This document shows, piece by piece, positions 3,820-8,232 of a stretch of 43,529 bases of DNA. Below the pieces are notes generated by a model. The model was not told the DNA's origin. It ran no database searches and was given only the letters and a program-made list of their open reading frames with translations. The stretch comes from Pseudomonadota bacterium (GTDB lineage Bacteria; Pseudomonadota; Alphaproteobacteria; SHVP01). Location of the stretch: NCBI GenBank assembly GCA_027622715.1, contig JAQBYN010000028.1, forward strand, positions 1 through 43,529. The letters are read 5' to 3'. A program made the translations under genes and the position numbers. How positions within the stretch are numbered: position 1 is the first letter of the stretch; each line of letters begins with the position of its first letter.

Positions 3820-5097
3820 ATGTCCGTAGCCGAAGCCCGCGACGACATTCATAGCCTGATGACGGAGATCGGCGTTGCGGCGCGTAGCGCGGCACGTCTG
3901 CTCGCGCGGGCATCGACCGACAGCAAGAACCAAGCGCTGCGGGCCGCGGCGCAGCTCATTCGCGACCAGCGCGACAAGATCCTGGCGGCGAACGCGCGTG
4001 ACGTTGCCGACGCCGATGCCGGCGGCATCAGCCAAGTATTGCGCGATCGCCTGGCGCTGAACGTCGCGCGGATCGATGCCATGGCCGAGGGGCTTGAATT
4101 GATCGCCAGCCTCCCCGACCCGGTCGGCGAGGTGTTCTGGGAGACTACCCGACCCAACGGCCTGCGGATAACGCGGGTTCGGGTGCCGTTGGGCGTGATC
4201 GGCATTATTTATGAATCGCGGCCCAACGTGACGGCGGACGCTGGCGCACTGTGCATGAAGTCCGGCAATGCCGTCATCCTTCGCGGCGGTTCAGAGAGTT
4301 TCCATTCGAGCCAGGCAATCGTGGCGTGCCTGCATGACGGCCTGCGGGCGGCTGGATTGCCTGTCGCCGCTGTTCAGCTGGTGCCGACGCGGGACCGGGC
4401 GGCTGTCGGCGAGATGCTGATCATGAACGATTCTATCGACATCATCGTGCCGCGCGGCGGGCGCTCTCTCATCGAACGGGTTCAGCGAGAAAGCCGAATC
4501 CCGGTACTCGCCCACCTCGACGGTAATTGCCATGTCTATATTCACGAGGACGCGGACCCGGAAAAAGCCCTCGCGATCGTGCACAACGCCAAGCTGCGCC
4601 GCTTGTCGATTTGCGGTGCCGCCGAATCGTTGGTGGTGGACCAGAAAGTGGCGCGCACAATACTGCCCGGGATCATTGATGACCTGAGCCGGTCGGGATG
4701 CGAAATTAGAGGCGACGCGGCGGCCCAGAAGATCGATCAACGAGTCATCCCAGCCACGACCGCCGATTGGTCGACCGAATACCTGGACGCGATCATTTCG
4801 CTGCGGATCGTCGACGGCATCGAAGACGCCATCGCCCATATCGAGCAATACGGATCCCATCATACCGACAGCATCATCACCGAGAACGAGGGTGCCGCAG
4901 CGCGATTTCTTGCTGAAGTCGATAGCGCAATTGTGCTGCACAATGCGTCGACGCAATTCGCCGACGGTGCAGAATTCGGCATGGGCGCAGAGATCGGCAT
5001 CTCGACCGACCGGCTCCACGCGCGCGGTCCGGTCGGCCTTGAGCAACTCACCACGTACAAGTACCTCGTTTACGGCAACGGACAGGTCAGACCCTGA
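3820..5097 (+). CDS. proA: Glutamate-5-semialdehyde dehydrogenase (gamma-glutamyl phosphate reductase)
   Basis: It is the second enzyme of proline synthesis and reduces glutamyl phosphate with NADPH. The 425-residue product has the aldehyde-dehydrogenase fold: [15 protein letters not shown] cofactor-domain motif, GNAVILRGG, and the catalytic cysteine Cys265 in [12 protein letters not shown]. The C-terminal segment [20 protein letters not shown] is also diagnostic. It follows proB directly. Its stop codon TGA (5095-5097) overlaps a candidate CTG start of nadD (5094-5096), continuing the tight packing of this operon. Confidence 0.97.
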
Positions 5098-5699
5098 CTG
5101 ACGCCGACACGGTCATCCGGCGCGGCGGGACCAGAACGATCGGGTTGCTCGGTGGTTCGTTTAATCCTGCTCATAGCGGCCATCTGCGCCTGAGTGAATT
5201 CGCGCTGACCCGACTAGGGCTTGATGAAGTGTGGTGGTTGGTATCCCCTCAGAACCCCCTGAAGTCGACGATCGGTATGGCGCCTTTTGATGAACGCATG
5301 AGATATGCGATCGCTGGTGCCACCCATCCGCGTATTCGCGCGACCGATTTGGAATCCCGTCTTGGCACCCGCTACACCGTCGACACGATCGACAGATTGC
5401 TGGCGCGGTATCCGAGCACACGTTTTGTTTGGCTAATGGGTGCCGATAACCTTGCGCAAGTCGACCGCTGGCGGCGCTGGCGTACCTTGTTTTCGCGGGT
5501 TGTGATCGCGGTAATCGATCGCCCCGGGCATACCTATGCGGCCCTGGCATCGCCGGCCGGTCATGCCCTGGCGCCGCGCCGCTACAAAGGGCCTTTGAGG
5601 CAATTGGCGTACCAGCAGCCCCCAGCTTGGGCCTTCGTCTTCGGGTTCCGCGATTGGACCTCGGCCACCGCCTTGCGCCAAAACGGGTGGCACGGTTAA
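5094..5699 (+). CDS. nadD: Nicotinate-nucleotide adenylyltransferase (start uncertain: CTG or TTG)
   Basis: It adenylates nicotinate mononucleotide in NAD synthesis. The nucleotidyltransferase signature [11 protein letters not shown] follows the first beta strand (TIGLL). [14 protein letters not shown] and the C-terminal TSATALR, a variant of the ISSTxxR motif, support the call. No ATG or GTG precedes the signature in frame. The TTG at 5145 would cut into the first strand of the Rossmann fold. I prefer the CTG at 5094: it overlaps proA's stop as CTGA and has AGG at 5084-5086 seven bases upstream, giving 201 residues. The start is inference; the identity is firm. Other family members begin about 3-20 residues before LLGGSF. 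Confidence 0.88.
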
Positions 5700-5725
5700 A
5701 TGCCCGAAGTTTCAGCCTGAGTACC

Positions 5726-5731
5726 GGAGGT
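5726..5731 (+). promoter_or_regulatory. Ribosome binding site deciding the rsfS start
   Basis: A perfect GGAGGT lies six bases before an ATA codon (5738-5740) in the rsfS frame. It is the only strong Shine-Dalgarno in this gap and falls after the nadD stop, which argues against starts inside nadD. Confidence 0.6.
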
Positions 5732-5737
5732 CTTCAG

Positions 5738-6127
5738 ATAACGCGCAACCGCAGGGCACCTGAGCCCAAGGCAGACGACCAGCGAACGCTGAAGCTGATC
5801 CTTGAGTCGCTTGACGAGGATCAGGCGATTGACCCCACGACCATCGATCTCGTCGGAAAGTCCCTGATCGCCGACCACATGGTTGTCGCCAGCGGGCGAT
5901 CGAACCGGCACGTCGCCGCGATTGCGGACCATCTTGCTGAGCGGCTAAAGGCCCAGGGAATCCAGGTTCGCGTCGAGGGACTGCCAAAGGGCGACTGGGT
6001 ATTGCTGGATTGCGGCGACGCTATTGTCCACCTGTTCCGACCCGAGATCCGCGATTACTACAACCTCGAAAAGATGTGGTCCGCGGCGTTACCCGACGAG
6101 TCTGCCGCCGTCCTCCCGGGACCATGA
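5738..6127 (+). CDS. rsfS: Ribosomal silencing factor RsfS (apparent ATA start)
   Basis: RsfS binds L14 on the 50S subunit and blocks subunit joining when nutrients are short. The body is typical: LKLILESLDEDQAIDPTTID, KSLIADHMVVASGRSNRHV, GDWVLLDCGDAIVHLF, and RDYYNLEKMW near the end. There is no ATG, GTG or TTG between the nadD stop and the conserved core. A TTG at 5627 exists but would place 24 foreign residues inside nadD. GGAGGT at 5726-5731 points to the ATA at 5738, giving 129 residues, the normal family size. CTG at 5717 is the other option. nadD-rsfS-rlmH is a conserved order, and the TGA overlaps the rlmH ATG (ATGA, 6124-6127). Confidence 0.88.
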   Translation: MTRNRRAPEPKADDQRTLKLILESLDEDQAIDPTTIDLVGKSLIADHMVVASGRSNRHVAAIADHLAERLKAQGIQVRVEGLPKGDWVLLDCGDAIVHLFRPEIRDYYNLEKMWSAALPDESAAVLPGP

Positions 6128-6585
6128 GGGTTGCGGTCGTTGCTGTTGGCAAGCTGAAGCGAAGCCCACTCCAAGCCGTCTTTGATGACTATGTCACGCG
6201 CCTGAACTGGCCGGTCCAGGTTCATGAGGTTGGCGCCTCGCAAGGCGCGTCACCCGTGGCGCGGCGCGATCAAGAAGCGACCAAGCTGGTGCGCCACTTG
6301 GCCGGGCAGTCGGTTGTCGTCGCCCTCGACAAAGACGGTCGCGATTTGACCAGCGAAGCCCTGGCCGCACAGATCGGCGACTGGCAGGTTTCCTCGCAGG
6401 CCGACGTCGCTTTCGTCATCGGCGGCCCCGACGGGCTCGGCGCGGCGGTCAAGGCGCGCGCCAATCTGACACTCGCCTTTGGCCGAGCGACCTGGCCACA
6501 TCTCCTGGTTCGCGTCATGCTGGCAGAGCAACTCTATCGTGCCGCGTCGGTGTTGAGCGGCCATCCCTACCACCGCGGCGACTAG
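6124..6585 (+). CDS. rlmH: 23S rRNA (pseudouridine1915-N3)-methyltransferase RlmH
   Basis: It methylates pseudouridine 1915 in helix 69 of 23S rRNA, using S-adenosylmethionine on assembled 70S ribosomes. The 153-residue SPOUT-class protein starts MRVAVVAVGKLK and has the knotted SAM site VIGGPDGLG. It ends in the family-typical EQLYRA...HPYHRGD. It overlaps rsfS by four bases, so ribosome silencing and late rRNA modification are coupled in expression. The following 75 bases before gpmI show no clear terminator or promoter. Confidence 0.96.
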   Translation: MRVAVVAVGKLKRSPLQAVFDDYVTRLNWPVQVHEVGASQGASPVARRDQEATKLVRHLAGQSVVVALDKDGRDLTSEALAAQIGDWQVSSQADVAFVIGGPDGLGAAVKARANLTLAFGRATWPHLLVRVMLAEQLYRAASVLSGHPYHRGD

Positions 6586-6660
6586 CGAAGGCTTGCACCG
6601 GCCGGTGTTCTCGCCCATCTTCCGGCAATCGGTCCGCCCTGTGAAACCCGTGCACCACCC

Positions 6661-8232
6661 ATGAAAAGCCGACCTCGCCCCATTGTTTTGTGCATTCTGG
6701 ACGGCTGGGGCTACCGTGAGGAACGCGAGGGCAACGCGATTGCCCTTGCTGCGACGCCGGTTTTCGACCGGCTCTTGACGGAGAACCCTTGGGCCCTCCT
6801 CAAAACCTCTGCCGCTGACGTCGGCCTGCCGGCCGATCAGATGGGGAACTCAGAGGTCGGCCATACCAATCTAGGGGCTGGGCGCGTCGTCCTACAGGAT
6901 CTGCCACGGGTTGATGCGGCGGTCGCCGACGGCACGCTGGCGGGTAACGCGACACTCAAGTCCTTGGCCGACCGATGCCGTGCCGGTACCGGGCGGTGCC
7001 ACCTCATGGGTTTGGTTTCCCCCGGCGGCGTGCACGCACATCAAAAGCACATCGCGGCGCTCGCACGATCATTGGCCGATGCCGGCCTTGCGGTCGACAT
7101 TCATGCCATCGTCGATGGGCGCGACACGGCGCCACAGAGCGCAGAGCGATTTCTCGCGGAGTTTGAACAAGACATTGCCGGCTACAGCAAGGTTCGGATC
7201 GCGACCGTGAGCGGGCGTTACTTCGCCATGGATCGTGACACACGATGGGATCGCGTCGCCCGCGCATATAGTGCCATTGTCGCCGCGAATGGGCCGCGGG
7301 CGCGCGACGCAGCATCGGTAATCCGGGACGCCTACCGGGATGGGATCACGGATGAATTCGTGGTGCCAACGATCCTGGGCGATTATGCCGGGATGGTCGA
7401 TGGCGATGCCCTTGTGGTCGGAAATTTTCGCGCTGATCGCGTCCGGCAAATCTTGGACGCGTTATTGATCGACGATTTTGCCGGGTTCGAGCGGCCGCGA
7501 CGTGTGCATTTTAGCGCGGCGGCCGGGCTAACCTCCTATTCGCGCGAACTCGACGGCATTATGGACGCACTCTTCCCGACTTTGGAAATCAAAGACACGC
7601 TCGGCGAACTTGTGTCGCGCGCCGGGCTCTCGCAACTTCGCATTGCCGAAACCGAAAAGTATGCCCACGTGACATTCTTTTTCAACGGCGGCGAAGAAAA
7701 GGTTTTCGCGGGCGAGGAACGGATATTGGTGCCATCCCCGCATGTTGCGACCTACGACCTCAAACCCGAAATGTCCGCGGCCGAGGTGACCGACAAACTG
7801 GTCGCGGCCATTGAGTCGCGCCGCTTCGATCTTATCGTTTGCAATTACGCCAACGCCGACATGGTTGGCCATACCGGGATGTTGCAACCGGCGATCGCCG
7901 CGGTCGAAGCCGTCGACAACAGTCTTGGCCGGATCGAAACCGCCATCAAGGCGGCGGGCGGCGTCCTCCTGGTGACGGCCGACCACGGTAACGCGGAAAA
8001 AATGAGTGACGCGGCCGGCGGCGTTCATACCGCGCATACCACCGATGACGTCCCACTCATCGTTGTTAACGCGCCAGAGGTCACCGGCGTTGATGCCGGG
8101 CGATTGGCCGATGTTGCGCCAACCATTCTCAGTATCATTGGACTGTCCAAGCCAGACGCGATGTCCGGTAGATCGCTGATACGTCATGCGCACCGCGCCA
8201 AGACCAACGACACAGTGCGTGCGCAAGCGTAG
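6661..8232 (+). CDS. gpmI: 2,3-bisphosphoglycerate-independent phosphoglycerate mutase
   Basis: It interconverts 3- and 2-phosphoglycerate in glycolysis and gluconeogenesis with two manganese ions. The 523-residue protein shows the metal motif LDGWG (Asp14), the phosphorylated serine Ser64 in QMGNSEVGH, DGRDT, NFRADR, and the second metal set NYANADMVGHTG and TADHGNAE with HTAHTTDDVP near the C-terminus. Its length and motifs are complete. The ATG at 6661 lies directly before the conserved RPIVLCILDGWG. The 3' end overlaps the start of the EnvC-like gene, as in many proteobacteria where gpmI, envC and ctpA are adjacent. Confidence 0.97.
   Translation: MKSRPRPIVLCILDGWGYREEREGNAIALAATPVFDRLLTENPWALLKTSAADVGLPADQMGNSEVGHTNLGAGRVVLQDLPRVDAAVADGTLAGNATLKSLADRCRAGTGRCHLMGLVSPGGVHAHQKHIAALARSLADAGLAVDIHAIVDGRDTAPQSAERFLAEFEQDIAGYSKVRIATVSGRYFAMDRDTRWDRVARAYSAIVAANGPRARDAASVIRDAYRDGITDEFVVPTILGDYAGMVDGDALVVGNFRADRVRQILDALLIDDFAGFERPRRVHFSAAAGLTSYSRELDGIMDALFPTLEIKDTLGELVSRAGLSQLRIAETEKYAHVTFFFNGGEEKVFAGEERILVPSPHVATYDLKPEMSAAEVTDKLVAAIESRRFDLIVCNYANADMVGHTGMLQPAIAAVEAVDNSLGRIETAIKAAGGVLLVTADHGNAEKMSDAAGGVHTAHTTDDVPLIVVNAPEVTGVDAGRLADVAPTILSIIGLSKPDAMSGRSLIRHAHRAKTNDTVRAQA

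Follow-up and report, generated by a model that had tools for sequence, protein, structure and literature searches.

Across the Alphaproteobacteria, the gene for the ribosomal silencing factor, rsfS, seems to be translated mainly from codons that differ from AUG, and comparison of loci over the class makes it very likely that AUG is avoided at this position under selection. In the stretch of DNA analysed here (the window, 43,529 nucleotides of contig JAQBYN010000028.1), rsfS translation very probably initiates at an ATA codon at 5738..5740 of the forward strand, although initiation itself is inferred from the sequence and has no experiment behind it. The principle of a near-cognate start is already known from infC; for its use by rsfS no record in print was found. 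Near-cognate starts are documented for few bacterial genes beyond infC, mostly within one species or one genus, whereas a ribosome factor of wide conservation seemingly shuns AUG here over most of a class. In the open-licence PubMed Central literature searched, no AUA, AUC, AUU or CUG start of rsfS was found, just the UUG of E. coli. The main text of a Ribo-seq study of S. meliloti (PMC10117765) contains neither rsfS, infC nor CTG, and its metagene analysis takes ATG, GTG and TTG as annotated starts.

The rsfS locus and its ATA codon

The locus carries, head to tail, a gene which we take to be proA (3820-5097, named from sequence), nadD (5094..5699, forward strand; NF000843, PF01467), rsfS (5738..6127, forward strand, 129 residues counted from the ATA) and rlmH (6124..6585, forward strand; PF02590). 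The product of rsfS matches TIGR00090 with 109.3 bits (cut-off 56.9) and PF02410 with 104.3 bits (cut-off 21.6), and no second rsfS occurs in this genome. The order nadD-rsfS-rlmH, present in the window, is the typical neighbourhood of rsfS. The ATG of rlmH overlaps the rsfS stop as ATGA.

The open frame of rsfS reaches back to 5450, and the nadD stop is the TAA at 5697-5699. Downstream of this stop the first ATG, GTG or TTG in the frame is the ATG at 5879, already within the conserved core of rsfS, while the nearby standard codons upstream (TTG 5627, TTG 5654 and GTG 5687) are all within nadD. The best-scoring Shine-Dalgarno for the frame is the GGAGGT at 5726..5731 (score 8.0), separated from the ATA by six bases, or by seven when counted from GGAGG. 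A first-pass annotation of the window had described this motif and its distance to the ATA, and had stated that no standard start precedes the conserved core after the nadD stop; both claims held. The assignment of the ATA as start rests on its position behind the Shine-Dalgarno, on a congeneric genome and on the start calls made over the class.

An rsfS match was present in six of nine other genomes of the family. Of the two congeners, one (G001) encodes an RsfS with 77% protein identity, and in the other (G002, 87% complete) no rsfS match was found. Over the start region the alignment with G001 reads TACCGGAGG.C.TC.GATAACGCGCA, with the ATA at the identical place: GGAGG, the 7-base spacing, the ATA and the 11 bases GATAACGCGCA are retained exactly, the majority of bases from the nadD stop to the Shine-Dalgarno are changed, and G001 likewise has no standard start in the rsfS frame after nadD. 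The first-pass annotation had proposed that an ATA conserved together with its GGAGGT in close relatives would be genuine, and in the sole congener with a match GGAGG and ATA are indeed kept.

Two explanations that would remove the ATA start can be weighed at this point. The first is that the gene starts with an ATG which was miscalled, or which has recently mutated from G to A; the G-to-A change from ATG is an alternative that the first-pass annotation had itself put forward. In its favour, ATA is a single base away from ATG and there are no read data; against it, an independent congeneric genome shares the ATA within an exact 11-base context, and ATA, ATC, ATT and CTG starts are used across the class. 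This alternative failed and is all but excluded, although its rejection has no reads behind it. Since the congener has the same ATA, a base-call error at 5740 is very unlikely, and sequencing error was rejected on this ground unless both assemblies share one error.

The second explanation places the true start elsewhere, at ACG 5741, CTG 5717 or TTG 5627 within nadD. It is supported by the ACG that directly follows the ATA in both species and scores just 0.8 lower, and by TTG codons found in frame within nadD in both. However, such an ACG is absent after the ATA, ATC or ATT of most relatives in the class, CTG 5717 is an ATC in the congener and has no Shine-Dalgarno ahead of it in either species, and the TTG codons inside nadD also lack one. 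Moreover, the residues that an upstream start would add between the nadD stop and the ATA agree at only 4 of 13 positions, and the Shine-Dalgarno itself encodes three of these four. A start elsewhere is thus very unlikely.

In both species an ATG (5700 in the window) immediately follows the nadD stop as TAAATG, out of the rsfS frame. The mini-ORF that it opens has six codons in the window (5700-5720) and 13 in G001, whose mini-ORF ends in a TAA overlapping the ATA start; as a candidate leader peptide it differs between the two species in both length and sequence.

Start codons of rsfS over the class

The survey of rsfS was confined to Pseudomonadota, with no other phyla. It gathered 243 alphaproteobacterial loci, which became 237 distinct ones after removal of six duplicates; they include 30 loci plus 100 more from the best-scoring places among 361 class hits, and the best 80 of 591 in a second search. 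The loci surveyed are the better-scoring ones, and one place was left out for having too little upstream DNA. Under a scoring scheme of our own making, a strict call required that a near-cognate or a standard codon win by a margin behind a strong Shine-Dalgarno. This tally, with its class of ambiguous loci, was preferred over a looser rule whose calls included doubtful cases.

By the strict rule, the start could be called clearly in 143 of the 237 loci, each time with a strong Shine-Dalgarno ahead of it. Near-cognate codons account for 109 of these (ATA 35, CTG 30, ATC 24, ATT 17, ACG 3) and standard codons for 34 (TTG 18, GTG 9, ATG 7); the remaining 94 loci are undecided, 42 being ambiguous and 52 having a weak Shine-Dalgarno. 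When the same procedure was applied to the two shifted frames only 12 and 14 calls resulted, with near-cognate to standard ratios of 9:3 and 14:0. The looser rule called 210 of the 237 loci in the rsfS frame, versus 27 and 21 in the shifted frames. A scan blind to the codon, in which the strongest Shine-Dalgarno was chosen first (233 loci) and the codons 4-9 nt downstream were then counted, returned ATA 35, ATC 31, ATT 15, CTG 36, TTG 22, GTG 8 and ATG 6 in the rsfS frame, compared with ATA 4 and 2, ATC 6 and 4, ATT 0 and 7, and CTG 2 and 3 in the two other frames. No in-frame ATG, GTG or TTG exists within 60 codons or before a stop in 27 of the 237 loci.

As single-linkage clustering chained 101 loci into one cluster, centroid clusters and family codes were used instead. 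The coded families number 76, of which 50 show only near-cognate starts, 8 show only standard ones and 17 are undecided; the single mixed one is that of the window itself (ATA 2, ATC 1, TTG 1, ambiguous 2, weak 1). Two coded families (f47 and f49) have GTG starts. Named examples, which are looser calls, include ATC in Azospirillum, ATA in Kiloniellaceae and Rhodospirillaceae, CTG in Ensifer, Hoeflea, Rhizobium and Limibaculum (Paracoccaceae), and mostly TTG in Sphingomonas. Some looser calls are open to doubt: in four Sphingopyxis-like loci (L172, L174, L184, L194) an ATC or ATA directly behind a TTG leaves the start ambiguous, in some loci called as ACG (L196, L230, L240) the ACG stands two codons ahead of an ATG, and in Rhizobium alvei (L180), called as ACG, the CTG one codon upstream is probably the true start. 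Two loci whose records are titled Candidatus Kuenenia (L189) and Mesoflavibacter (L200) rank with their rsfS genes among the nearest matches of the alphaproteobacterial query, and are likely to come from mislabelled assemblies.

Several observations support the called starts independently. A residue A, S, T or P directly follows the start in 74% of the ATA, ATC and ATT loci (n=89) and in 79% of the CTG loci (n=43), against a background of 41% in the following codons; such second residues are a mark of true N-termini, and they were not used in calling. In addition, 40 ATA, ATC or ATT loci had a nearest neighbour that could be aligned, the alignment being made without the start codon. The neighbour carried ATA in 14 cases, ATC in 14, ATT in 10, ACG in 1 and CTG in 1, that is, ATA, ATC or ATT in 38 of 40 and ATG in none. 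Relatives with ATG at this codon, which the first-pass annotation had named as the refuting case, are hence absent from this set. Within rsfS, ATG makes up 418 of 1451 ATN codons versus 7 of 83 ATN starts, and ATA 70 of 1451 versus 35 of 83. A tree of the 143 decisive loci, quick and rough since built on about 95 residues, required at least 20 interchanges among ATA, ATC and ATT, and at least 6 changes between ATG and all other states.

These data also bear on the possibility that translational coupling to nadD relaxes the constraint on the rsfS start codon, leaving it to drift. As coupling would have it, 21 of 89 measured ATA, ATC and ATT starts overlap nadD and 30 are no more than 30 nt away from its stop, but 19 lie more than 80 nt from nadD. 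Drift predicts frequent ATG, A to G being a transition, as well as codons that are not starts, and no ATG was seen among the 40 neighbours. The start codon is also better conserved than its flanks, being the same as in the neighbour in 34 of 40 pairs, compared with 21 for the preceding and 28 for the following codon. Finally, in the window rlmH overlaps rsfS and yet has an ATG, and over the loci its calls are mostly standard (3:20, see below). Drift through coupling is consequently considered unlikely.

Control genes and loci outside the class

The same calls were made for other genes; in those other than infC, many loci remained undecided because of a weak Shine-Dalgarno. All 30 infC loci returned from 56 hits (L244-L273) have near-cognate starts, ATA in 25 and ATC in 5, and the infC of the window's own genome (L260) starts at ATA. 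In this sample of 30 the ATT of E. coli infC does not occur. The near-cognate to standard ratio was 3:20 for rlmH (212 loci), 1:4 for hpf (30 loci returned), 0:6 for rbfA (30 loci returned) and 19:6 for nadD (194 loci; mostly CTG and ATC; shifted-frame nulls 3:1 and 8:2). Among the genes compared, rsfS and infC stand out, with nadD showing a weaker signal of like kind. Because nadD does not encode a ribosome factor and still presents this near-cognate excess, part of the pattern is possibly linked to the operon. In the window itself nadD has no ATG or GTG ahead of its core, and CTG 5094 overlaps the proA stop as CTGA (5094-5097), an overlap found also in G001; a start of nadD at CTG 5094 is likely, as inferred from these features.

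In Pseudomonadota beyond the Alphaproteobacteria, the 67 rsfS loci sampled (L274-L300 and L361-L400 included) gave no clear near-cognate start: 16 were standard (TTG 10, GTG 4, ATG 2), 40 had a weak Shine-Dalgarno and 11 were ambiguous. The rsfS of E. coli K-12 starts with TTG, in agreement with published data (PMC10917681). Where the Shine-Dalgarno is strong in these loci, TTG and GTG are commoner than ATG, and weak starts may perhaps be usual for rsfS.

A putative infC-like control and its known counterparts

The first-pass annotation had suggested a deliberately weak start resembling that of infC. The avoidance of ATG throughout the class and the ATA of infC in the same genome support this claim, while the autoregulation also suggested is left as an inference, beyond the reach of sequence alone. 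A weak non-ATG start would point to a deliberately low and probably regulated production of RsfS. Our reading, which we hold by a narrow margin, is that rsfS resembles infC, in that a start avoiding AUG would keep its translation low and sensitive to IF3, with both IF3 control and feedback being inferred.

In this model, the AUA at 5738 is read as a start behind a strong Shine-Dalgarno, as part of a class trait in which the strong Shine-Dalgarno is kept and AUG is shunned in favour of codons mostly discriminated by IF3 (AUA, AUC, AUU, CUG), as in infC; the start position and the selection against AUG rest on the comparison of loci, and the further steps are inferred. Starts outside the set ATG, GTG and TTG are repressed by IF3 (PMC5472188); work in E. 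coli places CUG in the repressed group with AUA, AUC and AUU. The 30S complexes formed on near-cognate codons would be unstable and would be rejected by IF3 unless the 50S subunit joins fast, so that the output of RsfS would be low and set by IF3 and free subunits. Two published results lend support: IF3 and RsfS levels go up in parallel in E. coli mutated in rimM (PMC13246957), and near-cognate starts in S. aureus yield about 10% of AUG (PMC13009471, see below). Sensitivity of rsfS translation to IF3 is likely on these grounds, with no translation data behind it. In S. aureus, RsfS binds uL14 and blocks association of the 50S and 30S subunits (PMC7125091); for the protein encoded in the window, for which there are no binding data, both properties are assumed by analogy. 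Because RsfS blocks 50S joining, feedback on its own start could be expected: its accumulation would slow joining and would hit its own near-cognate start harder than AUG starts. Such feedback would need no binding site on the mRNA, and we regard it as slightly more doubtful than credible. Folds of 86 nt at the start were no more stable than shuffled sequences in the two species (z 0.25 and 1.08), no Rfam family matched in 4900-7000, and no sigma-70-type promoter match for rsfS itself was found in 5000-6700.

A bolder reading remains possible, though it is judged less likely than not, in which IF3, acting on the 30S, and RsfS, acting on the 50S, would in Alphaproteobacteria make up a single small regulon marked by its near-cognate starts. 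The start codon would then sense the rate of 50S joining, with high RsfS slowing joining, IF3 rejecting more and both factors going down. As no mRNA structure or site would be needed, the exact codon would be free to drift short of AUG.

Some observations speak against IF3 control. The TTG (18) and GTG (9) starts found in parts of the class are codons that IF3 tolerates, and with sphingomonads using TTG and two families using GTG this control cannot be universal. An rsfS reporter in E. coli was highest in exponential phase (PMC10917681), which also runs against the proposed reading. A less favoured possibility is that the near-cognate start merely fixes a low level of RsfS (of which few copies would be needed in relation to ribosomes), without regulation by IF3 or feedback. 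This view is favoured by the roughly ten-fold drop in yield caused by weak starts in S. aureus, where near-cognate codons with an extended Shine-Dalgarno give about 10% of the AUG yield and ccpN up to 30% (rich medium; PMC13009471). The TTG of sphingomonads and the GTG of two families, unrepressed by IF3, would fit selection on yield alone, and E. coli rsfS uses UUG. Against it, a weaker Shine-Dalgarno would be the simpler route to low yield and yet the Shine-Dalgarno is strong, and its combination with an IF3-discriminated codon is the arrangement of infC (30 of 30 loci). If AUG is indeed avoided over most of the class, ribosome silencing would be linked to initiation fidelity, and rsfS N-termini may be wrong in many alphaproteobacterial annotations, which were not checked.

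The closest known counterpart is infC itself, which shares with rsfS the strong Shine-Dalgarno, the near-cognate start and the avoidance of AUG, both genes using ATA in this genome; IF3 is likewise a factor preventing subunit association. However, RsfS works on the 50S and does not inspect start codons, meaning that its control would be indirect. Whereas infC has ATA or ATC in 30 of 30 loci, some lineages have CTG, TTG or GTG starts in rsfS, and autocontrol by IF3 is known for infC but control of rsfS by IF3 is only inferred. Streptomyces sigR, with a GTC start repressed by IF3, is a gene other than infC bearing a rare regulatory start (PMC5472188), although there the evidence is experimental and both the codon and the type of gene differ. 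Staphylococcal ccpN (AUA) and cvfC1 (AUU) resemble rsfS in having conserved starts with an extended Shine-Dalgarno (PMC13009471), but they were mapped by ribosome profiling, are restricted to one genus and do not encode ribosome factors, whereas the rsfS pattern is class-wide. The E. coli rsfS, lastly, is the same gene with a non-AUG start behind a G-rich Shine-Dalgarno (PMC10917681), differing in that its UUG is not repressed by IF3.
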